Source: Salinimicrobium sediminis
GTDB taxonomy: Bacteria; Bacteroidota; Bacteroidia; Flavobacteriales; Flavobacteriaceae
Direction of reading: 5' to 3'
DNA: 64,000 nucleotides
Assembly: GCF_900215295.1 (NCBI RefSeq)
Contig: NZ_OCMF01000001.1
Location: forward strand, 806,001 to 870,000
The notes beneath the pieces are model-generated. The model had not been told where the DNA came from, made no database searches, and was given only the letters and a program-made list of their open reading frames with translations. Numbering within the stretch: position 1 is the first letter of the stretch; each line of letters begins with the position of its first letter. A program made the translations under genes and the position numbers. Shown one piece after another: positions 15,731-59,370 of the stretch.

Positions 15731-16426
15731 ATGGCAGTTTTGGAACCTGAGAAAGCGTCAGAATTAATCTGCAAAAATTTAGAGATGTTACATCAAAAAG
15801 ATTTTAAATACAACGGAACTCCAATAGAAAAAGCCAAAAAAGCTTTGATCATGGTACACGGACGCGGTGGTTTTGCTGAAGACATTTTATCTGTAGCCGA
15901 TCATCTTAAAGTGGAGGATTTCGCCCTGGTGGCTCCACAGGCATACAACAACAGCTGGTATCCACTTTCTTTTATGGCTCCCGTAGAACAGAACCAACCC
16001 TGGCTGGATTCGGCTATCGAGGTGCTGCAGCTACTGGAAAAAGAGCTTAATGAAAAGGGGATAGCTTCAAAGGATATCTATTTCTTTGGATTTTCGCAAG
16101 GTGCCTGCCTTACACTCGAATATGTAACCCGGAATGCCAAAAAATATGGAGGGGTGGTCGCCATCATTGGCGGACTTATTGGAAAGCAGATCAACACCGG
16201 AAATTATATTACAGATTTTGAAGGAACAAAGATCTATATAGGCACGAGTGATCCCGATGCCCATGTGCCGGTTGAGCGTGTGGAACAAACTGCTGCGATA
16301 CTTAAAAATAAAAATGCACAGGTGGAATTACAGATCCACAAGGATGGCGGCCATGCGATCCTTCCCGCAGAACTTGGAAAGGCTAATCATTTTATTTTCG
16401 GTTATTCGGGAGAGATCGATGAGTAG
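15731..16426 (+). CDS. Alpha/beta hydrolase, phospholipase/carboxylesterase type
   Basis: This 231-residue cytoplasmic hydrolase has the early block MVHGRGGFAED (41-51). The nucleophile elbow GFSQGA has Ser122, a later Asp lies in GTSDPDAHVP, and the His is in GGHAILP. That triad and order match the serine esterase/phospholipase family (YpfH-like). No signal peptide is seen and the substrate is unknown. It is convergent with queD, with two bases between the stops. Confidence 0.85.
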   Translation: MAVLEPEKASELICKNLEMLHQKDFKYNGTPIEKAKKALIMVHGRGGFAEDILSVADHLKVEDFALVAPQAYNNSWYPLSFMAPVEQNQPWLDSAIEVLQLLEKELNEKGIASKDIYFFGFSQGACLTLEYVTRNAKKYGGVVAIIGGLIGKQINTGNYITDFEGTKIYIGTSDPDAHVPVERVEQTAAILKNKNAQVELQIHKDGGHAILPAELGKANHFIFGYSGEIDE

Positions 16427-16428
16427 CC

Positions 16429-16881
16429 TTAGGAGTTGTCTGAGGCGTACCATTCGGCGTAAGAAGTTTCAGTTTCCTGAAGCCTCAGAGAATATAATTC
16501 TATATGCTGCGGAAGGCGGCTTTTGATCCTTTCAGCAAAATCCTGGATCATATTTTCACTGGTAGGCTGATAATCTACAAGAATTACGTTATGTCCTCTG
16601 GTCTGAAGTTCTTCGGCCAGTTCAACGTGCGGAGTATTTTTATTGAAGACCGTGGCATGATCAAACTTATCAACGATCTCCTGTTTCACTATTTTTTTAA
16701 GATCCCCAAAATCTATGACCATTCCCAATTTTACATGGTCTTCATCGCTGATAGGTTCCCCAATTACTGTCACCGCCAGCTTATAGCTATGACCATGTAC
16801 ATTCTTGCATTTGCCGTCATACCCGAATAAAGCGTGGCCGGTCTCAAAAGAAAATTGTTTGGTGATTCGAATTAATGCCAT
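16429..16881 (-). CDS. queD: 6-carboxytetrahydropterin synthase-like protein (PTPS family)
   Basis: This 150-residue protein has the zinc and catalytic residues of the family: H16, then C25-x-x-x-H29-G-H31. It also carries a conserved GMVIDFGDLKK block and a C-terminal Glu-containing strand. QueD makes 6-carboxytetrahydropterin from dihydroneopterin triphosphate for queuosine. I choose the ATG at 16881 because the family starts within a few residues of the first strand; a longer frame begins at 16926. Other queuosine genes are not in the window. Confidence 0.85.
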   Translation of the reverse strand: MALIRITKQFSFETGHALFGYDGKCKNVHGHSYKLAVTVIGEPISDEDHVKLGMVIDFGDLKKIVKQEIVDKFDHATVFNKNTPHVELAEELQTRGHNVILVDYQPTSENMIQDFAERIKSRLPQHIELYSLRLQETETSYAEWYASDNS

Positions 16882-17022
16882 GGGAACAAATTTTGTGCAA
16901 AGATAAAGGTTTTTAACTCCCTGCATTTTAACTTCGTTACAGGAAATTTTATAATTCCCGGCTTTTTATTCTTTTAGAAAATTGCCATTTTCAAGATACA
17001 TTTACAACCTAAAACGAAGCTT

Positions 17023-17643
17023 TTGGAGATTATTGAAAATCAGGTTTATGAGAAGATCATTTCAGATCTTTTAGAGCAACAGTATTCTGTTGTTGAAGAT
17101 TTCTTCAGCCTTGAACAGGTAGAAGAGCTACGGAATTCCCTGCTGACCAAATATGAAGAAGATAATTTTAAAAAAGCAGCCATAGGGAACCGCACAAATG
17201 AAGTGATTGCCAAATCCATTCGGGGAGATTTTATCCTTTGGCTCAATGAAGCTGAAGCTGCTCCTGCAGAAAAAGCATTCTTCAGCAAGATCAATGATTT
17301 TGTAAATTACCTCAACCGCACCTGTTTTATGGGAATTCTTCACAAGGAGTTCCATTATGCATTATATCCTGAAGGGACTTTTTACAGGAGACACCTGGAT
17401 ACCTTTCAAAATGACGACCGCAGGAAACTATCTATGGTGTGTTATCTCAACGAGCAGGACTGGCAACCGGAATATGGAGGAGAACTGGTGATTTACAGGA
17501 ATGAAAATGGAAAAGAGGTACCTAAAAGTATATATCCCTTTCCGGGACGTATGGTCATTTTTGAAAGCCAGATCCTGGAACATGAGGTAAAACCCGTAAA
17601 GACCGAAAGGCTGAGTATTACCGGATGGTTAAAAACCCGTTGA
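17023..17643 (+). CDS. Fe(II)/2-oxoglutarate-dependent oxygenase, prolyl hydroxylase-like
   Basis: The C-terminal double-stranded beta helix carries the iron triad H124-x-D126 and H187, and Arg196 should bind 2-oxoglutarate. The surrounding blocks (YRRHLD, LSMVCYLN, GGEL, ERLSITGW) match the SM-20/prolyl 4-hydroxylase-like family. The target is unknown; bacterial relatives modify translation factors or other proteins. No ATG precedes the conserved region in frame, so translation probably starts at the TTG at 17023. Confidence 0.82.
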   Translation: MEIIENQVYEKIISDLLEQQYSVVEDFFSLEQVEELRNSLLTKYEEDNFKKAAIGNRTNEVIAKSIRGDFILWLNEAEAAPAEKAFFSKINDFVNYLNRTCFMGILHKEFHYALYPEGTFYRRHLDTFQNDDRRKLSMVCYLNEQDWQPEYGGELVIYRNENGKEVPKSIYPFPGRMVIFESQILEHEVKPVKTERLSITGWLKTR

Positions 17644-17644
17644 T

Positions 17645-17776
17645 CTATTTCCTGAATTTTTTAAATGCTACTACCACGATCAACAGGATCGCGATAAGCA
17701 ACCAAAATCCATAACCGCTTAAGAAACGCATGATGTCAAAGGCATCTTCGCTTACCGGAACTTCGTCTTGCATCAT
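17645..17776 (-). CDS. Small single-span membrane protein, 43 residues
   Basis: The gene starts ATG-ATG at 17776 and overlaps the stop of the gene before it (ATGA overlap), which implies coupled translation. An acidic N-terminus (about 18 residues) is followed by one hydrophobic helix (GFWLLIAILLIVVVAF) and a short basic tail (KKFRK). That predicts an outside N-terminus and inside C-terminus. It is the last of three tiny membrane genes in a row. I do not recognise a family. Confidence 0.6.
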   Translation of the reverse strand: MMQDEVPVSEDAFDIMRFLSGYGFWLLIAILLIVVVAFKKFRK

Positions 17777-17949
17777 CTTTTATTTCTTTTATCCCAGGCG
17801 TGGCGTGCATAAAAGAACAATGCTACCAAAACAATGATAGCCAGGATATAGATCCACTGGTCTTCCAGGAAATCCATCAGGGAAAATCCATATTCCTGCC
17901 GCTCTGTGGCCGGCCTGTCTTTTGGTAAATGTTCCTGCTGAAAACTCAT
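17773..17949 (-). CDS. Small single-span membrane protein, 58 residues
   Basis: This frame runs from the ATG at 17949 to a TGA at 17773 that overlaps the next start. It has a polar N-terminal half of about 32 residues, one transmembrane helix (WIYILAIIVLVALFFYA) and a basic end (RHAWDKRNKR). The layout (polar, helix, basic tail) is the same as in both neighbouring small proteins, although the sequences are not obviously homologous. Function is unknown. Confidence 0.6.
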   Translation of the reverse strand: MSFQQEHLPKDRPATERQEYGFSLMDFLEDQWIYILAIIVLVALFFYARHAWDKRNKR

Positions 17950-17984
17950 AATGGCTGATTACAGGGCTGTCAAAAATGACATTT

Positions 17985-18170
17985 TTAGCCCCAGTTATTT
18001 TTCCTCTTTCTTCTAAAGAAAGCAAAATAAAGTATTGCGGCGAGAAGTACTACCGCAACGGTAATAATAGTCCAAAGATTTGATCCTACAAAATAGCCAA
18101 GGTGGTACGCCATTTTTCCGATCTTATTCTCTTCGGCTTCCTGGGCGGCAAGGATAAAAAGTGAATGCAT
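17985..18170 (-). CDS. Small single-span membrane protein, 61 residues
   Basis: I choose the ATG at 18170, one base after the enoyl-CoA hydratase-like gene ends at 18172; the longer frame would overlap that gene. The protein has a polar N-terminal part, a helix (WTIITVAVVLLAAILYFAFF) and a strongly basic tail (RRKRKNN). It heads the trio of small membrane genes that appears to share a transcript with the hydratase-like gene. I do not recognise a family. Confidence 0.6.
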   Translation of the reverse strand: MHSLFILAAQEAEENKIGKMAYHLGYFVGSNLWTIITVAVVLLAAILYFAFFRRKRKNNWG

Positions 18171-18171
18171 A

Positions 18172-18942
18172 TTAACTATTTTTAATTTTGGATAAAGCAT
18201 TTCTGGTAAAATCTGAAAGCACCAATTCTCCCGAGATTGCCGCACGTTCCTGCAAAAGGCTTCCCCACTTCTCGGTTCCTTCCCAAAGCACCTTCTTCAT
18301 TTCATAAAGAGCCGCAGGATTATAGGAAGCCAGTTTTTCTGAAAAGAACTGAAGTTCCTTGTCCATTTCGCCTATAGATTCAAAAACCCGGGCGTAAAGC
18401 CCCTTTTCTTTGGCCCAGTAGGCGTTCTTCCAGTCTTGTGCTGCCAAAGTAAGTTCTGCAAGTGCCGCAACTCCCATTTTACGCTCTATAGCAGGAGCAA
18501 TAACAAAAGGCCCTATACCTATGCTGAGTTCAGAAAGTTTGATGGCAGCTTGTTCAGTTGCAAAGCAGTAGTCACAAGCTGCTGCCAGGCCTACTCCGCC
18601 GCCAACGGTTTTCCCCTGAATGCGGCCAATGATCAGTTTTTTGCAGCTGCGCATTGCGTTGATCACATTGGCAAATCCTGAAAAAAAGACCTTTCCCTGC
18701 TGCATATTTTCCACCGCCAGCAGCTCATCAAAAGAGGCCCCGGCACAAAAGGCACGATCTCCTTCAGATCTTAAAATAATAACCTTTACTTCTTCGTCTT
18801 CAGAAAGTTTTTCCAACTCCTTTTCCAGACGCTCCAGCAATACTGCGGGAAAGGAATTGCTGGCAGGGTGGCCAAACTCCAGGGTGGCAATTCCGTTGAT
18901 AACTTTGGTATAGAGACTTCCGTTTTCTCTGGTGGTGGTCAT
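18172..18942 (-). CDS. Enoyl-CoA hydratase/isomerase family protein
   Basis: This 256-residue crotonase-fold protein has the oxyanion-hole region RAFCAGAS (63-70) and GGGVGLAAACD (114-124). One of the two classical catalytic glutamates is replaced: the position of rat Glu144 is Gly118. Glu138 in SELSIGIGP keeps the other. This resembles methylglutaconyl-CoA hydratase or isomerase-type members, but the acyl-CoA substrate cannot be named. The gene is 53 bases downstream of the MATE gene and directly precedes three tiny membrane genes. Confidence 0.82.
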   Translation of the reverse strand: MTTTRENGSLYTKVINGIATLEFGHPASNSFPAVLLERLEKELEKLSEDEEVKVIILRSEGDRAFCAGASFDELLAVENMQQGKVFFSGFANVINAMRSCKKLIIGRIQGKTVGGGVGLAAACDYCFATEQAAIKLSELSIGIGPFVIAPAIERKMGVAALAELTLAAQDWKNAYWAKEKGLYARVFESIGEMDKELQFFSEKLASYNPAALYEMKKVLWEGTEKWGSLLQERAAISGELVLSDFTRNALSKIKNS

Positions 18943-18995
18943 ATCTAGATTGGCTTTCCTGTAAAGTTACATTTTATTTTCACTTTTTCTGAAGG

Positions 18996-20321
18996 TCAGG
19001 CTTCGCGGTGTAAATATTTCCTCCGGAATTTTATCACCAGGGCACTACTCCTTATCAGCATCCAAACAAAGAAGGCAATCCAGATGGCGTAAAGATCCCA
19101 TCCTAAATAGTCCCCTATTAAAAGTACGGGAGTAAAGCCCAGAAAGGTCGCTGCCAGCAGCACATTCCGAAGGAATTTCGCTTCCCCCAGGCCTTTAAAG
19201 ATCCCGTCAAACATAAAAGCAATGGCATTGACCGGCTGCATGAACAGCACCATCCAGAAAACCGAAGAAAACAGCAGCAGGACCGGAGCTTCCTTGCTAA
19301 ATATCATCCCAATTTCATTATAGAAGAGGCTGCAGAGGCCAATCAGAATTATTGCAATCATCACTGAATATTTGCTGATCTTCTTGCTGAGCAACCAAAG
19401 ACCTTTATAATCTTTAGCGCCTAAAAGTCGGCCGCCCATTGCATTCCCCGCGTTTGCATACCCGTCAATAAAGAAACTGAAGAACAGCCAGATGTTCATA
19501 AGGATACTTTGGGCAGCGATATAATTTTTCCCATAGTCCGTAGCATAAGCGTTGGCGAGATAGATAGCAAAATTCAAAGCCGCGGTACGCACGAAGAGAT
19601 TTCCGCTCATCAACAGCAGGTAACGCATCTGCGGATTTATCCTGCGGCTTAATCCCAGGTGGAATGGTGTTTTTTTAAAGAAAAAATATAGGGCCATTAT
19701 CAGCATTACTGTTTGCGCGATCACACTCGCCCAGGCGGCTCCTTCCAGATGCATTGCAGGGATCCAGCCTTCGATGCCGTAGACCAGAAGAAAATCCAGC
19801 CCCACATTAAGAAAAGCTCCCGTAAGGCTGCATTTCATGGCCCATAAAGTGTTCTGCAGCCCTCTGAAGACTCCAAAAAGGGCAAAAGTCACCAGGGTGA
19901 GCGGGTATCCAATAGCACGGATCTGGTAATAATTAGCTGCATAACTGAGCACTTTGCCTTCGGCATTATAGGCACTAAAAATTGCCGAAGCAAAATAGGC
20001 GGTAATGGCATAAATGACCAGACTGAGTAGAAAATTGAAAAATATCGCCTGGGGAACCAATGTTTTAACGGCATGAATCCGGTTGGCACCCAAATGTTGG
20101 GAGACCAGTGCCGAAATTGCTGTTTTGGTCTGGGCTACAATCCAGATGATCGCAGAAAGAAAGGATCCTACAATTCCTGCTGCCGCAAGAGCTTCGACAG
20201 GATCCTGTTCCACATTTCCTATAATGGCAATATCTGTAAGGGAGATGAGTGGTTCGGCAATACCGGCAAAAATAGCCGGAATCGCAAGTTTGTTGATATT
20301 TTTAAAATTGACTACTGCCAT
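18996..20321 (-). CDS. MATE family multidrug/cation antiporter
   Basis: This 441-residue protein has about twelve transmembrane helices in two related halves. The early motif PLISLTDIAIIGN and the SAIIWIVAQTKTAISALVSQHLGA stretch are typical of the DinF-like branch. Such proteins export drugs or metabolites using Na+ or H+. Its ATG overlaps the TAA of the acetyltransferase gene upstream, so the two are translated together. Confidence 0.9.
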   Translation of the reverse strand: MAVVNFKNINKLAIPAIFAGIAEPLISLTDIAIIGNVEQDPVEALAAAGIVGSFLSAIIWIVAQTKTAISALVSQHLGANRIHAVKTLVPQAIFFNFLLSLVIYAITAYFASAIFSAYNAEGKVLSYAANYYQIRAIGYPLTLVTFALFGVFRGLQNTLWAMKCSLTGAFLNVGLDFLLVYGIEGWIPAMHLEGAAWASVIAQTVMLIMALYFFFKKTPFHLGLSRRINPQMRYLLLMSGNLFVRTAALNFAIYLANAYATDYGKNYIAAQSILMNIWLFFSFFIDGYANAGNAMGGRLLGAKDYKGLWLLSKKISKYSVMIAIILIGLCSLFYNEIGMIFSKEAPVLLLFSSVFWMVLFMQPVNAIAFMFDGIFKGLGEAKFLRNVLLAATFLGFTPVLLIGDYLGWDLYAIWIAFFVWMLIRSSALVIKFRRKYLHREA

Positions 20322-20824
20322 TACTGCAGCACTTTTTCATAGCAGTAGAATGGATGCTCGCTTTGCTTCGGAAAATAGATATTCCCAAGTCTTTTATAGC
20401 CCCGGGTCTCATAAAACCTTTGATTTCGCTCGTTCTTGCTGAAGGTATCCAGCCTCACTGAAACATAGCCCTGTTCTTTAGCAAAGGCTTCGGCGAAATC
20501 CATGAGTTTCCTGCCATTGCCGCTGCCCCACTCCTGCGGATTAGTGGCGAGGCGATGTACATATAAATTACTGCTACTTTGGGTGAGCCATTCGACGGGA
20601 ATATACTCTTTATCCATGCAAGGAGTAAGTACCACGATGCCTTCGATGACATTGTTTTCCTCAAGTACGAAAAGCTCCTCCTTTGTAATATCCTCCTGCA
20701 GTCTTTCCAAAGAAGGATAAAGTTCATTCCACTGAAAAATGCCTTTTTCCTGCATGCCTTTTGCACATGCTTCGGTGAGTTCTTTGATGGCTGTTAAGTC
20801 TGACGCGGTGGCTTTCCTGATCAT
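20321..20824 (-). CDS. GNAT family N-acetyltransferase
   Basis: This 167-residue protein has the GNAT fold. It has an N-terminal MIRKATASDLTAIKEL strand-helix, a middle strand VEWLTQSSSNLYVHRLATNP, and an acetyl-CoA loop in QEWGSGNGRKLM. The C-terminal region is SVRLDTFSKNERNQRFYETRGY. The acceptor substrate is unknown. It is the first gene of the minus-strand run that continues with the MATE pump. Confidence 0.88.
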   Translation of the reverse strand: MIRKATASDLTAIKELTEACAKGMQEKGIFQWNELYPSLERLQEDITKEELFVLEENNVIEGIVVLTPCMDKEYIPVEWLTQSSSNLYVHRLATNPQEWGSGNGRKLMDFAEAFAKEQGYVSVRLDTFSKNERNQRFYETRGYKRLGNIYFPKQSEHPFYCYEKVLQ

Positions 20825-20874
20825 AAAGAGGATGTTCGATCACAAAAATAAATTTAATAGAAAGAAATAAAGGC

Positions 20875-20905
20875 TTTACACATTGAATTATATTTTATAA
20901 ATTTG
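20875..20905 (+). promoter_or_regulatory. Promoter of tRNA-Ala
   Basis: A perfect Bacteroidetes -7 box, TAAATTTG (20898-20905), is preceded by TTT at 20875-20877 with a 20-base spacer. The predicted start is about 20 bases before the tRNA. Confidence 0.6.
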
Positions 20906-20931
20906 CCACGTTGAAATTGTTTCAGCCTATT

Positions 20932-21008
20932 GGGGGATTAGCTCAGCTGGCTAGAGCGTTTGGCTGGCAGCCAAAAGGTCATCGGTTCGACTCCGATATT
21001 CTCCACCA
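20932..21008 (+). tRNA. tRNA-Ala (anticodon GGC)
   Basis: The 77-base cloverleaf has an acceptor stem GGGGGAT/ATTCTCC, a D arm GCTC/GAGC, and an anticodon stem TTTGG/CCAAA with loop CTGGCAG (anticodon GGC). The T arm is ATCGG/CCGAT with loop TTCGACT, and CCA is encoded. The 3' part from the variable loop onward has been copied into the tandem array that follows. Confidence 0.97.
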
Positions 21009-21605
21009 AAAACCACTGCGAAAGCGGTGGTTTTTTTGTTTCCTTTAGATTTTTCAGAAGGTCATTGGTTCCCCCGAAGCATCGGGGCGATATTCTCCAC
21101 CAAAAACCACTGCGAAAGCGGTGGTTTTTTTGTTTCCTTTAGATTTATCAGAAGGTCATTGGTTCCCCCGAAGCATCGGGGCGATATTCTCCACCAAAAA
21201 CCACTGCGAAAGCGGTGGTTTTTTTGTTTCCTTTAAATTTTTGAGAAGGTCATCGGTTCCCCCGAAGCATCGGGGCGATATTCTCCACCAAAAACCACTG
21301 CGAAAGCGGTGGTTTTTTTGTTTCCTTTAAATTTTTGAGAAGGTCATCGGTTCCCCCGAAGCATCGGGGCGATATTCTCCACCAAAAACCACTGCGGAAG
21401 CGGTGGTTTTTTTGTTTCCTTTAAATTTTTGAGAAGGTCATTGGTTCCCCCGAAGCATCGGGGCGATATTCTCCACCAAAAACCACTGCGGAAGCGGTGG
21501 TTTTTTTGTTTCATTTAAATTTTTCAGACGGTCATCGGTTCCCCCGAAGCATCGGGGCGATATTCTCCACCAAAAACCACTGCGGAAGCGGTGGTTTTTT
21601 TGTTT
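20975..21605 (+). repeat. 94-bp tandem array of tRNA 3' end plus terminator
   Basis: CTCCACCA plus the terminator begins at 21001, 21095, 21189, 21283, 21377, 21471 and 21565, an exact 94-base period. Each unit holds the tRNA 3' portion (AAGGTCAT to CCA), the terminator, and a short AT-rich spacer. In all six downstream copies the T-loop region is replaced by a GC hairpin, CCCCGAAGCATCGGGG, which makes each copy 11 bases longer than the real tRNA. No downstream copy can be a tRNA because the 5' half is missing. Units 1-4 read TGCGAAAGCGG in the terminator and units 5-7 read TGCGGAAGCGG, so the array grew by internal duplication. Confidence 0.95.
21011..21037 (+). terminator. tRNA-Ala terminator, first of seven copies
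   Basis: The hairpin ACCACTGC / GCGGTGGT with a GAAA loop is followed by seven T residues, three bases after the tRNA CCA end. The same terminator recurs every 94 bases to about 21603. Confidence 0.85.
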
Positions 21606-21673
21606 ATAGCCCAAGGCTTTACCGATACTGTTTTTGAACCCCTGACAGGGTTGTACAACATTGAATGATTGAT

Positions 21674-22525
21674 TTATTTCCTTATAAATTCTGTAGTTTT
21701 TTCAATGATGTTTTTCATCGCCGGGGTAAGATCTTTACTTTCCCAGGGATGAGAAACTTCAAATACGTGATCACTGTTCTTAAGCAGGAAGAGTTCAGAA
21801 TTCTTAATCCATTCATGCAGGTCATGTGCATTATCGACCGAAACCGTTTCATCACCGGTCCCATGAATGATGAGGGCAGGAATTTTTAATTTTTCTGCCG
21901 ATCTGGAAATGGTGAGCCTTTCCTCATTGTTTTTAAAGTCCTCATAGAAATCAAAAAGATGAGGCATTTGTTGTTTTGTGCGGGTGTTTTCTATATAAGC
22001 GATACCTTTTTGTCGCCATGCTTCCAATTCTTCTCCTTTGGGAAACCGGTCTCCAAAGTCACTAACAGCGGCAAGGGTGATTAATTTTTGCACCCGTTCA
22101 TCTTCAGCAGCTTTTACGACTACAATTCCGCCGCCACGGGAGTGCCCCATTAAGCTAAAGCGGGAAAGATCCACCATATCGGTATACGGAAAATCTTCAC
22201 TAAAAATCCAGTTGATTAGCACGTGCAGGTCATCGAGTTCCTTGGTATAGGTGTTCTCCCCAAAAGCATCAAGATCGGGAAAATCGATGGGTTCTTCCAG
22301 GGTGCCCCCATTAAAGGCGAAATTGAACTTTATGAACAAAAAGCCATTTTTTGCATACTCCCGGGCCATCAAATTCCAGGCACCCCAATCCTTAAATCCC
22401 TTATAGCCGTGGCAAAACAACACAACCGGTTTTTTTTCTTCAACTTCAGAATAAAAAACATCGGTAGGTATGGGCCGGCCATGCAGCCCGGATAGACTTA
22501 AATTCTTCTTTTGATTAATTACCAT
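21674..22525 (-). CDS. Alpha/beta hydrolase (dienelactone hydrolase/acyl esterase type)
   Basis: This 283-residue protein has the oxyanion block VVLFCHGYKGFKDW (34-47), a nucleophile elbow GHSRGGG with Ser129, an Asp in HGTGDETVS and a His in SDHVFEVSHP. It has no signal peptide and the substrate is unknown. Its start overlaps the last seven bases of the AddB-like gene, so it is probably co-translated with it. Confidence 0.85.
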   Translation of the reverse strand: MVINQKKNLSLSGLHGRPIPTDVFYSEVEEKKPVVLFCHGYKGFKDWGAWNLMAREYAKNGFLFIKFNFAFNGGTLEEPIDFPDLDAFGENTYTKELDDLHVLINWIFSEDFPYTDMVDLSRFSLMGHSRGGGIVVVKAAEDERVQKLITLAAVSDFGDRFPKGEELEAWRQKGIAYIENTRTKQQMPHLFDFYEDFKNNEERLTISRSAEKLKIPALIIHGTGDETVSVDNAHDLHEWIKNSELFLLKNSDHVFEVSHPWESKDLTPAMKNIIEKTTEFIRK

Positions 22526-25278
22526 GCGTTTTGTTTTATTTCCTTTTCCACAAAAGGAGTTTCAGGATCACAGATCTCTAAAATAAGATTTTTCAATTGT
22601 TCTTTAAAGGCCTCCAGAGTTTCTGAAGTAATATCATTTTCTTTTTTAGCACCGTAGCCCTTTTTATCCTTTTTACAGAACTTCAGAAAACCTCCCTGCA
22701 GATTTTTAAAAGAAATGATCCCGGCCTCAAATTCAGGAGGCAGGGGATCTGCAACATCCATCATTAGGGCATAGGTGAGGATCTGAAAAGGTTTGCTGTA
22801 CTTATCATAATCAGAATTGATCTCCTCCCATTCCACCACTTCAACTTTAGATTGCTCTACCTTCCCGGTTTTGTAATCTATAATCCTTATTTTGCCGTTA
22901 AATTCATCAACCCTGTCTACGGTTCCTTTCAGAAAAACAGGAAAATCAAGTTCCTCCACCGGAAACTGCGCGTGCAGCTTTTCTTCCACCTTCAGGATCT
23001 TTAGGTCATTTCCCTCCTCCAGATTTTTTATCTCCCATTTCAGGAAATTTACCACATACCGTCGTGCAACTTCATAGATGAGTAGATTTTTCCCGCTGTC
23101 TAAAGGCGCCTGGGTATAATGATTCCTGAATTGTTTTTGTATTTCATCATTTGTCCTTTCCATGGCCCGCTCCAGCATTTGGATCGTCACATCACTTTGC
23201 AGCCATGGCTCATAAAAAGTCTCCAGGGTGTCGTGCACCACATTTCCCAGCGTATTATAGGCCACGGTTTCCTCTACCTCTTCCCTTTCCTTGAGGTCCA
23301 GCACGTATTGCTTGTAAAAATCCAGCGGATTCCTGATATAAGTGGTCAAGGCCGAAGGTGAAAATCCTGCTGCCGCCCTCGCTTTGATCTTCTCAAGGAT
23401 TTCCGGAGTCTTCTCGATGGTCTTTAAATGTACAGGCACCGGAGGTACTACAGGAGTTACTTTAAAGTTTTTTATTTGATGCTGTGACTGTGCTTCCATC
23501 TCAAGCTGCAGCAAAAAACGGCTTTTTTCACCTGCATTAAGTCCATCACTCTCTGTATTGTAAAGCAAATGTACCTGCTCTGCACGTTGCAGGAGGTGAT
23601 AAAAGTGATAGGTATAAACCGCATCCTTTTCTTTATAAGTGGGTAAATTATATTTACACTTTAAGTCAAAAGGAATAAAAGAATTGCTGCTCTTTCCAGC
23701 CGGAAGCACCCCTTCGTTTACCGAAGTAAGAATTACATTTTTAAAATCCAACACCCGCGACTCCAGCATTCCCATCAATTGCAAGCCCGAAAAAGGTTTT
23801 CCGCGGAAATCGACAGTTCTTGATGCAAGTAAGTCCTTAAAAAGAGAGAACAGGATCTTTAAGGAATTGATATAGGGATACTTTTGATACAGGTTGGTTA
23901 GCTGGTTAACCACCAAATGCAACTGATATAAAAATTCCAGGGTTAGCCTGTCCTGATCTGTATCCAGTCTATTCTTAAAAATCATGAGCAGTTCCTGAAG
24001 CGCCTGTAAAGCATAACCGGGATCATTCTTCCAATCCAAAAAGCAAATTTCAAAAAGCTTTTGAACGTTCCCGGGCACACCTTCCATGATCTCGTCGCGG
24101 GTAACATATACCAGGTTCTCCTTTCTTAATTTCTCCATTAATTTTTGAGAATGGCCGCCGGTAACCTTCTGAAAAAGCGGATGACTTAAGATCAACATGA
24201 GATCTTTGTAGTACCGGGTATCGTTACCGGGAGTGGAATGCATTTTCAACAAATGTTCAAAAAGAGAACTCACGGGTGCGTTCTTAAGAGCAAATCCCAT
24301 GGTTATATTCACCTCCCCCACGTTTGGCGGCAGGGAATTCAGCACCGGCAATAAAAGGCTTTCATCTCCCAACACTACTGCAGTTTGCTGTAAATCTTCC
24401 GGAGAAAGTTTGGAGAGCAGTTCCCCCACATACTTTGCCTGCCCAATATTCTTGGGTACCCCAATCATGTTGATATTTTTTGAACTGCTGTAAGAGTTTG
24501 AAACGATATTTAACCGGTTCTCCTGGTAGTACGGCCATGATTTAAGGTACTGTCTTAAGAATAAGGAAACATCATGTTGATCATCCTTCAGGAAAATCTC
24601 ATCTATATCCCAAAAGACTTCAGCTTTACCTGCAGCTAAAAGAGTTTGGAGGATATTCTGTTCAGCATTGTTAAGTGCGTTAAATCCAATAAAGACAAAT
24701 GAAACTGAAGCAGCTTCAGCAAATTGCCTAATATTTTCTGAAGCGCGGCGGTAAACCATCCCCTGGTATGCCTGGTTACGTTTTTCCAGCTGTTTCTGAA
24801 GCTCTTCGTAATATTCCGGCAGCTTATTCCAAAACAACAGATAATTCTCCATTAGCGGCGTCTTCTCCTCCTGAAGATACCAATGGTTCATTTCCTGAAT
24901 ATTTCCCAGATAACCAAAAAAGGACTTATAATCAATGAGGTAACGGTCAATTTCGTTAAAATCGTGAAGCAGGGTTTGAGCCCAGGTGGCAAAAGTGTCA
25001 AAATCTTCAGCTTTTTCTTTAGGCGTACAGGTGAGGTATGCAGCATAAAATTCAAAAAGAGCGGTAATGTTATCCACAGAACTCAATCCGGCCACTTCTT
25101 CGGCAAAATCTTCTATACTTAGCACCCGGGGTGCAAAAATGGGATTTTTGGTATGCTTTGATAGTTTGTTGATGAGAAAAGATCCTGCACGTTTGCTGGG
25201 TAAGATGAAAGTAGTAGCAGAAATATTAACTTTCCTGGAGAGCAATTCCAGAAGCACTTGTTCTATAAATGATGTCAT
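22519..25278 (-). CDS. addB: AddB/RecB-like nuclease subunit with PD-(D/E)XK domain
   Basis: This 919-residue protein has an inactive helicase-like N-terminal region (residues 1 to about 600, starting with PSKRAG where a Walker A would be). It ends in a Cas4/RecB-like nuclease domain: SALTTYIRNPLDFYKQYVL near 640, then GTVDRVDEFNGKIRIIDYKTGK near 790-811, which carries the catalytic Asp and Lys. It is the partner expected for the AddA-like helicase-nuclease at 28298-31438, together resecting DNA ends for recombination. The four iron-sulfur cysteines of Bacillus AddB are not apparent. The two subunit genes are separated by ompA-like and kbl genes. Confidence 0.82.
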   Translation of the reverse strand: MTSFIEQVLLELLSRKVNISATTFILPSKRAGSFLINKLSKHTKNPIFAPRVLSIEDFAEEVAGLSSVDNITALFEFYAAYLTCTPKEKAEDFDTFATWAQTLLHDFNEIDRYLIDYKSFFGYLGNIQEMNHWYLQEEKTPLMENYLLFWNKLPEYYEELQKQLEKRNQAYQGMVYRRASENIRQFAEAASVSFVFIGFNALNNAEQNILQTLLAAGKAEVFWDIDEIFLKDDQHDVSLFLRQYLKSWPYYQENRLNIVSNSYSSSKNINMIGVPKNIGQAKYVGELLSKLSPEDLQQTAVVLGDESLLLPVLNSLPPNVGEVNITMGFALKNAPVSSLFEHLLKMHSTPGNDTRYYKDLMLILSHPLFQKVTGGHSQKLMEKLRKENLVYVTRDEIMEGVPGNVQKLFEICFLDWKNDPGYALQALQELLMIFKNRLDTDQDRLTLEFLYQLHLVVNQLTNLYQKYPYINSLKILFSLFKDLLASRTVDFRGKPFSGLQLMGMLESRVLDFKNVILTSVNEGVLPAGKSSNSFIPFDLKCKYNLPTYKEKDAVYTYHFYHLLQRAEQVHLLYNTESDGLNAGEKSRFLLQLEMEAQSQHQIKNFKVTPVVPPVPVHLKTIEKTPEILEKIKARAAAGFSPSALTTYIRNPLDFYKQYVLDLKEREEVEETVAYNTLGNVVHDTLETFYEPWLQSDVTIQMLERAMERTNDEIQKQFRNHYTQAPLDSGKNLLIYEVARRYVVNFLKWEIKNLEEGNDLKILKVEEKLHAQFPVEELDFPVFLKGTVDRVDEFNGKIRIIDYKTGKVEQSKVEVVEWEEINSDYDKYSKPFQILTYALMMDVADPLPPEFEAGIISFKNLQGGFLKFCKKDKKGYGAKKENDITSETLEAFKEQLKNLILEICDPETPFVEKEIKQNAW

Positions 25279-25290
25279 GCCTTAAAAATA

Positions 25291-25322
25291 AAAAACGCCC
25301 CGGTTATACCGGGGCGTTTTTA
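25291..25322. terminator. Terminator downstream of the OmpA-family gene
   Basis: A 10-bp GC stem (ACGCCCCGGT / ACCGGGGCGT) with a three-base loop is flanked by A and T runs. It lies between the ompA-like stop and the addB start, both on the minus strand, so addB must have its own promoter or depend on read-through. Confidence 0.88.
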
Positions 25323-25342
25323 AATTTATATTCTAAAGAGGA

Positions 25343-26761
25343 TTACATTCCACCCTGATTGGTAGTATCCTGCTCCTGAGTAGCATTTTCTTTCATTTCT
25401 CTTTCTTTATCAAGAGAGATTTCTACCCTTCTGTTTTCCTGTCTTCCTTTCGCTGTATTATTAGAAGCGATTGGTTGAGATTCTCCGTAACCTTCAGAAG
25501 TCAATCTGTTTTCAGGAATTCCTGCATTTACAAGGAATTCTCTTACAGAAGCTGCTCTTTCTCTGGATAGCTTCTCATTATAAGATTCGCTACCTGTGCT
25601 GTCTGTATGACCTTCAATGTGGAAGATCGTGTTAGAGTATTCCTTCATGATATCTGCAATAGCCTGAAGAGTTTCTTCAGATTCAGAACGGATTGTTGCT
25701 TTATCAAGGTCGAAAAGGATAGTTCTTGAATATTCATTCAATTCTTCGATAACCTCAACGGTAGGCTCAGGACATCCGTTGTTTGCGGCAGTACCGGCTA
25801 CTTCGGGACATTCGTCGTCTTTGTCAAGAACACCGTCATTGTCCTGGTCTTCCCATGGACATCCGTTGTTTTCTTTCGGACCTGCCTCGTTAGGACATTC
25901 ATCATCGCTATCTTTAATTCCGTCGCCATCTGCATCAGGACATCCGTTCATCTCAGCAAGACCGGCTACAGTTGGACATTCGTCCTTATTGTCTGGAACT
26001 CCGTCACCGTCGGTATCAGGACATCCGTTATACTGCGCTAAACCTGCTTCGTTAGGACATTCATCCTGTCTGTCTTCAATTCCGTCACCATCAGAGTCAG
26101 GACAACCATTGAATTGTTCAAGACCGGCTACTTCAGGACACTCGTCATCTTTATCATAGATTCCATCCCCGTCTGTATCTTTTCCACCCATAGCGAATTT
26201 AATTCCTGCTACGTGCTGGAAATGAGAGTCAAAATCATCGTCAAATGCGTGCTTATAAATAGTTTGCACAGTAAGTGCAAAATGATCTGTGAACCAGAAG
26301 TTGATTCCCACGGTACCGTCTACAGTACCAAAGCCATTTTCGTCGATCCAGGTATAACCCCCACCGGCACCAATTACAGGATCAAACCATCCTGCATTCG
26401 CATCATTGCGGAAGCTATAGTTAAAGGTACCATCCAGACCATAGTAAGAAAGATTATCCCATCCTTCATCTCCATACTTATCAATTTGATTAACAGAACC
26501 TGCTGCTTCAAAATAGAAACCGGCTCCAATATTACGGGCTAATGAAATTCTGGAAACTCCGGGAAGAATATTCCAGTGATCTCCCGTATTAAAAAATTCG
26601 TCAAAATAACCACCCAAAGGTGCGTCTTCTCCGGTAGGAAAAAAGTCTACCGCATTAATTCCTAAACCTAATGCCCAGGGATTATCATCATCCTGCGCCT
26701 GCATAGTGCTAAAGCTCAGAATGCATAGGGAAGCCAATAAAAATTTGTTTAGATGTTTCAT
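25343..26761 (-). CDS. OmpA family outer-membrane protein with thrombospondin-3 repeats
   Basis: The ATG at 26761 begins a Sec signal peptide ([18 protein letters not shown], cleavage after MQAQ). It is followed by a beta-barrel-like region to about residue 190. Five calcium-binding thrombospondin type 3 repeats (DxDGDGxxDxxDECP...NGCP) cover about 190-332. The C-terminal OmpA peptidoglycan-binding domain ([39 protein letters not shown]) covers about 340-460. A very similar architecture is a major outer-membrane protein of flavobacteria. A textbook promoter lies upstream and a strong terminator downstream, which fits high single-gene expression. Confidence 0.93.
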
Positions 26762-26794
26762 ATTGAAGAGTTTAATTTTATTAGTTAGCAGAAA

Positions 26795-26825
26795 CAAAAG
26801 TAGACTGATATTCCCTACAAACAAA
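26795..26825 (-). promoter_or_regulatory. Promoter of the OmpA-family gene
   Basis: On the minus strand a perfect -7 box TACTTTTG (26802-26795) is preceded by TTTG boxes at 26821-26818 and 26825-26822, with spacers of 15 and 19 bases. The leader to the ATG at 26761 is about 25-30 bases. The rest of 26826-27020 is AT-rich and shows nothing else. Confidence 0.75.
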
Positions 26826-57876: not shown

Positions 57877-59370
57877 TTAATCTTCATCTGTTCCACAAAC
57901 TTCTGCATGTACTACGATGTAAAGAGGTCCATCACCAACAGTAAAGGTATCTGTTCCAAGATCAAACTGTCCCGGTGCACGATCCTCCGGCCAGTCTGTA
58001 CCTACATAGATATGAGATTCGTTTATGGTTACTCCCTCATAAAGATCAAACTCTACTTCAAGGGTGTTTCCGGTTTTAGTGATCACTATGAAACCAGCTT
58101 CCCAACCTTTAGAGGTATCATTTTGTCCGGCTCCAGCATGGAATGGTACTCTCCATACTCCTTCACCTACTTTATACTGGTCATCAAATGAATCTTCGTC
58201 AAGAACAAGACCCCAGCCCCAGCTATTACCATTATAGATACCCAACTCATTTAGCTCGTTGTCTCCAACCATATAAGCTGTATCACAACCTGCAGCTACA
58301 CCGTTGTCATCTCCGTCACCGTTGTCATCACCATCAGTATCACCGTTATCGTCACCATCACCGGTTCCGTTATCGTCTCCGTCACCGTTGTCAGCACCAT
58401 TATCGTCACCATCTGTATTCCCATTGTCATCGCCACCAGTGTTGTCTCCTTCACATCCAAATCTTAGGTGCTCATAATTTACATTATTGTCACCATCAAA
58501 GTTGGCCATAATCTCATTTCTGCTAAGGCTTCCTGTGATCACCATATTTTCAGGAGCGTCATAAACGCCATCCCAGTCAAGTAGGGTAACAGTATAATCA
58601 ATGTACTCTTCACCATCTGCATAAGCTGCAAGATCTGGAAGTGCAAAACAAATAGGATCTGCATAATTGTCTCCGGCGTTGTTCACACCTACATTGTTAA
58701 TGTTTTCTCCTGCTTCGTAGATCACTGTACCATCGATAGAAAATTCTACTGAATATCTTGCAGGGAAATGTCTTCCTTCTGGAGTACAGTAGTTTGAGAA
58801 GAAACAAAATTCAAAAGCTTTTGTAGTATTAAATTCGAAGAATTGGTATCCATATTCATTTACGTCTCTGTCGTCATAACATAACACAGACACGTCAACA
58901 TATTTTTTTACCCCGGCACCTAAATCAATAGATAAAGGAAGGGATACATCTACAAATTCTTCAAGAACTCCGCCTTTAGGTGCGATCCAGGTAAGATTCC
59001 CGGCGGCATCATACACAGCGAAATGCTCAAGAGTATATTGTCCAGGTTCAAGTTCCAGAGAAGCATCTTCTTCAGTGAAAACCTGACCTGCCGCAAGATC
59101 GACTCTATAAGGAGCGTCTGCACCGATAACGTACCCATCTCCCTGCATTAAAACGATTTCAACATAGGAAGGAGCGGCATCTGAACATTGTGGCAAATCG
59201 CTAACAGAGGACTGTTTGTTAGTTGAATTGGCCAGGTCTGCAACAATAGCTCCAAAAGATAGGGTAGCTTTTTCTGTGGTGGCATCCACCCCGGATTCAT
59301 CCTTACTGCAGGATGTAAAGATCATTGCGAAAACCGCAAGGAATGTAAAGTAATTTTTGATGTTTTTCAT
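57877..59370 (-). CDS. Large exported lipoprotein with Asp/Gly/Asn-rich linker
   Basis: The 497-residue protein has a lipoprotein signal ending IFTSC (Cys21). An N-terminal domain of about 300 residues is rich in beta strands and contains paired cysteines (for example in FCFFSNYC). A linker of about 45 residues (about 305-350) is almost only D, G and N with T, repeating DGDDNG. A C-terminal domain of about 145 residues follows. The linker is likely flexible or calcium-binding. I do not recognise the domains. Location should be the cell surface or periplasm. Confidence 0.8.
   Translation of the reverse strand: MKNIKNYFTFLAVFAMIFTSCSKDESGVDATTEKATLSFGAIVADLANSTNKQSSVSDLPQCSDAAPSYVEIVLMQGDGYVIGADAPYRVDLAAGQVFTEEDASLELEPGQYTLEHFAVYDAAGNLTWIAPKGGVLEEFVDVSLPLSIDLGAGVKKYVDVSVLCYDDRDVNEYGYQFFEFNTTKAFEFCFFSNYCTPEGRHFPARYSVEFSIDGTVIYEAGENINNVGVNNAGDNYADPICFALPDLAAYADGEEYIDYTVTLLDWDGVYDAPENMVITGSLSRNEIMANFDGDNNVNYEHLRFGCEGDNTGGDDNGNTDGDDNGADNGDGDDNGTGDGDDNGDTDGDDNGDGDDNGVAAGCDTAYMVGDNELNELGIYNGNSWGWGLVLDEDSFDDQYKVGEGVWRVPFHAGAGQNDTSKGWEAGFIVITKTGNTLEVEFDLYEGVTINESHIYVGTDWPEDRAPGQFDLGTDTFTVGDGPLYIVVHAEVCGTDED

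Follow-up and report, generated by a model that had tools for sequence, protein, structure and literature searches.

Tandem hairpin-bearing tRNA-Ala tails in Salinimicrobium sediminis, a probable relative of tRNA-linked GIY-YIG elements in the Flavobacteriaceae

We analyzed a 64,000-nucleotide stretch of the Salinimicrobium sediminis genome (the window) and characterized the repeats directly behind its tRNA-Ala(GGC) gene (Table 1). Tandem Repeats Finder reported positions 20994-21605 as a repeat with a period of 94, 6.5 copies, 97% matches, 0% indels and a score of 1126. Seven CCA ends were found at 21008, 21102, 21196, 21290, 21384, 21478 and 21572, with a spacing of 94 bp throughout. A first-pass annotation had described an exact 94-bp array of seven tRNA-Ala tail copies and terminators. 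The array is real and lies at the positions given there, and its period is exactly 94 bp, but the six units differ from one another at 7 of the 94 columns; seven terminators and seven CCA ends are present, and they belong to one intact tRNA and six scarred tails. Units 3 and 4 were identical and unit 6 was the most divergent of the six, and the last 36 nt of the unit, comprising hairpin and tail, were invariant (chance probability 0.029).

The same annotation held that a hairpin replaces the T-loop in six copies. This was the case in all six; more precisely, five T-loop bases (GACTC) are swapped for the hairpin, GGTTC-GACTC-CGAT becoming GGTTC-CCCCGAAGCATCGGGG-CGAT in each unit. The hairpin sequence occurs exactly six times in the 3.48-Mb genome, always inside the tRNA-Ala array. 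Other palindromes within the window included some GC-rich hairpins, none with the sequence of the array hairpin. Further tandem repeats in the window were an ordinary 81-bp repeat (25890-26140, 3.1 copies) within the gene at 25343-26824 (- strand), whose product is an OmpA-family protein carrying thrombospondin type 3 repeats, and an imperfect 18-bp repeat, ATCACCGTTACCGTCACC, at 58339-58413 (4.2 copies).

Table 1. Features of the tRNA-Ala(GGC) locus, in window coordinates.
Feature	Position	Strand	Basis
Promoter-like site 5' of the tRNA, TTTACA ... TAAATTTG, with Bacteroidetes-type -7 box TANNTTTG	20875-20905	+	consensus match only
Intact tRNA-Ala(GGC), CCA encoded	20932-21008	+	Rfam tRNA, 64.4 bits
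Unit 1, made up of a terminator, a spacer and a tRNA 3' tail copy that has the T-loop hairpin and ends in CCA	21009-21102	+	
Unit 2	21103-21196	+	repeat comparison
Unit 3	21197-21290	+	repeat comparison
Unit 4, identical to unit 3	21291-21384	+	repeat comparison
Unit 5	21385-21478	+	repeat comparison
Unit 6	21479-21572	+	repeat comparison
Seventh (last) terminator, end of array; stem 21572-21599	21572-21605	+	
T-loop hairpin CCCCGAAGCATCGGGG, copy 1	21072-21087	+	exact match
T-loop hairpin, copy 2	21166-21181	+	exact match
T-loop hairpin, copy 3	21260-21275	+	exact match
T-loop hairpin, copy 4	21354-21369	+	exact match
T-loop hairpin, copy 5	21448-21463	+	exact match
T-loop hairpin, copy 6	21542-21557	+	exact match

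The orthologous tRNA-Ala locus was compared in 11 other genomes of the genus, 10 of them readable; in G011 the contig stops at the tRNA. No unit was present in eight of the 10 readable relatives. G003 carried one unit with the same hairpin as the window, and G001 carried two units, 122 bp apart, with a different spacer and the hairpins CCCCGAAGTGTCGGGG and CCCCGAAGCGTCGGGG; the G001 tail copies extend back into the anticodon arm. Copy number, which the first-pass annotation had suggested comparing among strains, was six, two, one or no units within the genus. The absence in eight relatives, together with the differing copy number, indicates that the array is dispensable and variable. Among the tRNA-Ala(GGC) genes of the genus (L015-L024, L043), the CCA was encoded in those of the three unit-bearing genomes and of G008; the seven remaining readable relatives lacked an encoded CCA, as did G011. 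The encoded CCA may have been brought in by the element proposed below.

Variable copy number is also expected if the array is a passive repeat, in which a tail was duplicated with a stray palindrome and then expanded through slippage or by unequal crossing-over without any nuclease being involved. The identity of units 3 and 4 and the distance of unit 6 are what unequal recombination would leave. Passive expansion can account for the length of the array, but not for the unit, and the surveys below led us to regard this explanation as unlikely.

A census of tail copies was made in three genomes by seeking the last 14 nt of each tRNA (at most two mismatches) in the 1.2 kb downstream; Rfam tRNA totals were one above the census for two of them (45 for G010 and 38 for G404). 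In the source genome (G000), tail copies were found at 13 of 42 tRNA genes, whereas the reversed core gave 0/42 and the reverse-complement core 1/42; the two Asn genes count one shared set of copies, and the Arg-ACG copy lacks a hairpin. The idea, raised in the first annotation, of looking for the hairpin at other tRNA genes of this genome was borne out at 12 of the 42, Ala included, with hairpin sequences that were mostly different. The genome from a different genus, G404, had tail copies at 14 of 37 tRNA genes, 7 with a hairpin according to the detector (controls 0 and 1), and G010, a one-contig genome of the same genus, had them at 2 of 44 with one hairpin (controls 0 and 1).

Three tails of G000 (L165, L172 and L194, behind Gly-TCC, Thr-TGT and His) carry a composite nested palindrome, e.g. 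CCCGAGTCCCGATAGCCATCGGGATCGAGGG, and no nuclease was seen downstream of these tails. At L367, Aragorn misread a scarred tail as a tRNA with an undefined anticodon. Such tails are callable as tRNA genes and are therefore an annotation hazard, as is the contig break at tRNA-Ala in G011.

We searched more widely with two hairpin patterns, both of which detect the T-loop type only, so that their counts are lower bounds. The pattern GGTTCCCCCGAAGNNTCGGGGCGA (at most two mismatches) matched 16 of 397 genomes of the family, and the reversed-pattern control had no match among those listed. Thirty loci, several from a single array, were examined out of 52 places listed, and in 28 of them a tRNA of the same strand precedes the hairpin by 16-854 bp. 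The upstream tRNAs were Ala, Phe, Cys, Leu, Val, Gly and Tyr. The exceptions were L058, where an orphan Ala-like scarred tail (at about 1501) stands in a 3-kb locus with no tRNA gene, and L046, where tRNA-Phe lies 3' of the hairpin and none lies upstream. The strict pattern GGTTCNCCCGANNNNTCGGGNC was present in 9 of 395 genomes of the phylum, six in Flavobacteriaceae and three in other families. Among its loci (L260-L278), the tail at 15 of 19 resembled that of a tRNA lying upstream (Val, Phe, Pro, Ala or Ser), and four of 19, including the single match of G758, had no upstream tRNA.

Several of the scarred tails stand behind a small GIY-YIG nuclease gene. Of the 14 GIY-YIG matches in G000, eight follow a tRNA of the same strand at a distance of no more than 1.2 kb (binomial p = 2e-14), and four of 10 do so when matches are collapsed to places (p = 6e-7). 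The eight comprise three at Phe, two at Arg-TCT, two at Leu-CAA (one with an internal stop) and one at Asn. At the Phe, Arg-TCT, Asn and Leu-CAA loci the nuclease genes lie between the terminator of the tRNA and the scarred tail, and all five G000 tRNA genes with a downstream nuclease have tail copies, the two Asn genes sharing one nuclease. The full order of the element is intact tRNA, terminator, GIY-YIG gene (about 79-96 codons), hairpin-bearing 3' copy and terminator, with the hairpin replacing or interrupting tRNA sequence in the tail copy. In G010, none of the 44 tRNA genes examined is followed by a nuclease; its tRNA-Phe locus aligns with that of G000 through the tRNA into the terminator region, the downstream stretch inspected holds no scarred tail, and the locus is an empty site.

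A Phe-type query of the named genomes gave 72 loci, of which 58 had an upstream tRNA (57 Phe and one Leu-TAA); in nine of the other 14 the match lay no more than 700 nt from where the stretch ends, and in five it lay farther away. Where the gene directly follows tRNA-Phe, its start is mostly 40-68 nt past the tRNA. Flavobacterium johnsoniae is among the species with such a tRNA-Phe-linked gene (L141). At least one non-intact Phe tail was present at 55 of the 72 loci, counted with a search core kept short of the T-loop (a longer core missed copies). Other arrangements were also seen. Five tandem GIY-YIG matches with a 391 bp period lie in a one-contig genome (G133:C1:1215160-1216951). Three small GIY-YIG genes of G000 (L075, L076 and L078), 21-22% identical to the Phe type, have no tRNA in their 3-kb loci, and three Phe-type genes (L101, L107 and L121) have no upstream tRNA in the examined stretch and a tRNA-Cys about 105-110 nt downstream.

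All four proteins examined from sibling loci matched PF01541, with 43.6-64.5 bits against a cut-off of 22.6, and no NCBIfam family was over its cut-off for the four nucleases. Among Phe-type proteins, R26 was conserved in 64/64 and H30 in 63/64. The AF2 model of the nuclease had a pLDDT of 94.4, and the top folds in a Foldseek search of the PDB were of the GIY-YIG kind and included UPF0213, Slx1 and I-TevI, at weak E-values (best 0.011). The median dN/dS of the Phe-type nuclease was 0.163 over 112 pairs from 64 sequences, restricted to pairs with dS of 0.15-1.2, showing that it is under purifying selection. The phage and plasmid collections contained no nuclease matches.

At the window locus, no open reading frame of at least 80 aa overlaps the array on either strand and no GIY-YIG frame was found in the 1.4 kb downstream of the tRNA-Ala (L385), so the array is at most a non-autonomous relative of a GIY-YIG element. 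A search for tRNA-Ala matched 171 of 199 genomes, and the 50 stretches inspected held 46 GGC genes. Tail copies were present at 8 of these 46 tRNA-Ala(GGC) loci, the window included, and some of the Ala copies had no hairpin. A nuclease was present at none of the 46 (0/29 and 0/17), and the Ala arrays are therefore best viewed as non-autonomous.

Within the genus, 5 of the 7 genomes that have a Phe-type nuclease or its remnant carry T-loop scars, versus 0 of 5 without (Fisher p = 0.028), two of the five nuclease-free genomes being drafts about 75% complete. Excluding scars at tRNA-Phe itself, the figures were 4/7 versus 0/5 (p = 0.08). The remnant in G001 is a 50-aa match only, and G007 and G009 have a Phe-type nuclease yet no strict T-loop scar.

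We measured where the hairpin interrupts the tail copy in relation to the type of nuclease. The scanned loci held 156 distinct small GIY-YIG proteins, 116 with an upstream tRNA and 93 also with a tail copy. For Phe, 70 of 84 had a tail copy and all 70 kept 11-14 nt of the tRNA end, which corresponds to a T-loop hairpin; the measure has a floor of about 11 nt, since a 13-nt core must match, and the abutment of the Phe hairpin on GGTTC and CTGG was seen directly in the tail sequences. For Asn, four of six had a copy, keeping 24 nt in three and 16 nt in one (L215, off-rule). All six copies among eight Arg-TCT proteins kept 30-34 nt, and Val-TAC copies kept 28-35 nt in four of five and 17 nt in one (L364, off-rule). 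The tRNA end kept was 32 and 34 nt for Met, 30 nt for Pro, 25 nt in two for Leu-CAA and 12 nt in one of two for Leu-TAA. Aragorn calls of tRNA-Stop-TTA (L360) and tRNA-SeC-TCA (L358) were treated as miscalled Val copies and entered in the tree as Val-TAC; these two gave 58 and 27 nt. No tail copy was found after the nuclease for Asp, His, Arg-TCG and one undefined call. The hairpin thus sits in the T-loop in the Phe type, in the variable loop in most of the Asn type and in the anticodon arm in most of the Arg/Val type.

A nuclease tree was built from 86 of the 156 proteins (tail copy found, 70-135 aa), retrieved with Phe-type and Arg-type queries. The position labels changed 6 times on the tree versus 19.1 times when shuffled, and none of 200 shuffles was as low, the T-loop label being reserved for Phe and Leu-TAA tails of at most 17 nt and so partly dependent on tRNA type. 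Taken alone, the 'mid' label showed no clear clustering, 23 of 500 shuffles reaching as low a count. A 100/100 branch separates two groups: Arg/Val/Pro, which also holds Leu-CAA and one Met, and Phe/Asn, in which the second Met nuclease falls beside Asn. The alignment has few columns and many of the sequences are near-copies, and the bootstrap is unsettled; together with a label that leans on tRNA type, this means that the clustering partly reflects kinship and definition. The position of the hairpin largely tracks the nuclease clade. The tree also largely follows taxonomy, and it therefore offers no basis for interspecies spread.

The passive-repeat explanation is opposed by this relation between hairpin position and clade, by like insertions at the same tRNA position behind several isotypes, and by the 13 tailed tRNA genes of G000, four of whose loci hold a nuclease between tRNA and tail. 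The clade relation also counts against a further explanation, in which REP-like palindromes spread by another enzyme land in tRNA tails and the nuclease is a passenger. REP and REPIN sequences are short palindromes served by RAYT, an HUH enzyme, and they resemble the elements here in combining a short palindrome with a small enzyme gene and in having copies with and without the gene. Several tail hairpins presumably resemble dispersed Bacteroidetes palindromes, and the composite hairpins at the Thr-TGT, His and Gly-TCC tails would fit such an origin. However, the enzyme here is GIY-YIG and not HUH, the units are bound to tRNA tails in local arrays and are not dispersed, and the window hairpin is confined genome-wide to one array. 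We consider a REP-like origin very unlikely.

We examined covariation in 35 distinct Phe tails, selected for an insert of exactly 16 nt between the fixed flanks, other insert lengths being excluded. All 210 of 210 stem cells were paired versus 94.3% in shuffles, and 18 cells were double-changed versus 5.8 in shuffles. Double changes from CG to UA occurred at two of the six pairs, and 178 of 500 shuffles reached two such pairs. The sequences differ by clade and covary, so we rejected the view of the hairpin as a single fixed mobile palindrome.

A conserved stem could also point to a functional RNA, in which units yield or process tRNA-tail small RNAs like rtT, selection maintains hairpin and tail, and the hairpin stops the tail RNAs from passing for tRNA. 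In E. coli tyrT, 178-bp repeats contain the 3' end of tRNA-Tyr and give rtT RNA. The likeness to rtT drawn in the first-pass annotation holds in that both are tandem repeats behind a tRNA, each with a tRNA 3' end, and is one of resemblance only; we know of no T-loop hairpin and no nuclease association in the tyrT/rtT repeats. In favor of this reading, compensatory changes preserve the stem at Phe loci, the last 36 of 94 nt are invariant in the window array while the remainder varies, and a 102-nt segment around unit 1, terminator included, folds better than 200 of 200 shuffles (z = -3.97). Each of the seven CCA ends is followed by a 12-pair terminator-like hairpin, and 15 terminator-like sites were counted on both strands versus 1.6 ± 1.5 in shuffles. 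The units may serve as a terminator stack or a source of small RNA. Against both roles, the sole + strand occurrence of TANNTTTG in 20800-21620 is upstream of tRNA-Ala, no Bacteroidetes-type -7 box was found within the units on the + strand, and every unit is preceded by a terminator-like hairpin. The RNA reading is further opposed by the absence of the array at the orthologous tRNA in most readable relatives, by an Rfam search of 20600-21900 in which only tRNA exceeded its gathering score, and by the sibling loci, where a like tail closes a nuclease gene. A functional RNA is, in our view, improbable as the explanation of the array.

The array could alternatively consist of attachment-site scars, left by tyrosine-recombinase integrative elements that use tRNA 3' ends. 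Such elements have att sites at tRNA 3' ends, and like the elements here they leave a restored tRNA and a duplicate of its 3' end. The copies do start within the tRNA and continue beyond its 3' end as att duplications do, and those of G001 stretch into the anticodon arm. In contrast to integrative elements, the units are very small, no integrase was present among the nine flanking proteins scanned (15731-26824), all six copies hold a hairpin in the duplicate, and the gene at sibling loci is a GIY-YIG nuclease. We know of no att site that carries such a hairpin, and we regard this origin as extremely unlikely. Of the four options offered by the first-pass annotation, our reading is closest to the scar of repeated recombination at a tRNA site, and it adds the sibling GIY-YIG genes and the largely clade-linked hairpin position.

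The closest precedent appears to be SegB of phages. SegB of T6 is a free-standing enzyme of the GIY-YIG type; its cuts fall inside tRNA genes and lead, via recombination, to tandem amplification, and the motif RAWTSGAAC was present at 23 of 83 sites (PMC13096335). The table of an older review gives a tRNA intergenic region as the SegB target (PMC2988022). The reverse complement of the motif, GTTCSAWTY, may be read as a T-loop and matches GTTCGATTC of tRNA-Phe; this is our reading of the sequence, and neither of the terms T-loop and T-arm was found in the available text of PMC13096335. As in T4 and T6, a GIY-YIG gene adjoins tRNA genes, and the tandem amplification at SegB has its parallel in the arrays here. 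Unlike SegB, the elements here are chromosomal, are the size of a catalytic domain (about 79-96 aa), and in the Phe type are fixed to one tRNA. Their units also end in a hairpin-bearing tRNA tail, and the available parts of PMC13096335 and PMC2988022 describe none at segB. In the open-licence literature (titles and abstracts, with subscription papers mostly outside), we found no description of hairpin-scarred tRNA tails and none of tRNA-linked GIY-YIG elements on bacterial chromosomes.

Our reading, held with moderate confidence, is that the Flavobacteriaceae harbor a family of homing-like GIY-YIG elements that target tRNA genes, and that the window array is a member which lacks an ORF and has been amplified in tandem. 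On the precedent of T6 SegB, we infer that the nuclease would cut the tRNA gene at the site where the hairpin lies in the copy. An element-bearing copy used for repair would then insert the element at the cut, the left end of the element restoring a working tRNA and its right end bringing the hairpin and deleting the target from the copy. Repeated cutting, with recombination between identical tails and terminators, would lengthen the arrays. At tRNA-Ala, a Phe-type (T-loop) nuclease encoded elsewhere in the genome, or one since lost, may have acted in trans, which would make the window array non-autonomous. Several observations stand against this scheme, among them the lack of a nuclease at the tRNA-Ala loci and the exceptions given above. 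The upstream intact tRNA keeps its T-loop and the tail copy alone loses those bases, while insertion of a classical homing gene removes its target; and GTTCGACTC of tRNA-Ala misses the SegB motif at W.

The family probably belongs with free-standing GIY-YIG elements, and there is a real chance, somewhat short of even, that it forms a class of its own among bacterial mobile DNA, specialized on tRNA genes. The enzyme of such a class would cut at a clade-specific position, the element would insert and the tRNA would be rebuilt on the left. The right-hand hairpin tail would be a lasting mark of immunity or the structured DNA substrate of the enzyme, and action in trans on several tRNA genes would give a genome in which about a third of the tRNA genes can have nuclease-made tails.

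Transfer RNA genes are essential and conserved, and an element feeding on them must therefore repair them. If the proposed reading is true, it would explain tRNA-tail repeats and also small nuclease genes of the GIY-YIG type, eight of which follow tRNA genes in the source genome, and free-standing homing nucleases would gain a bacterial chromosomal home. The place of the hairpin would reveal the cut site of each nuclease ahead of biochemistry, and the family would be a natural collection of compact nucleases tied to tRNA sequences.
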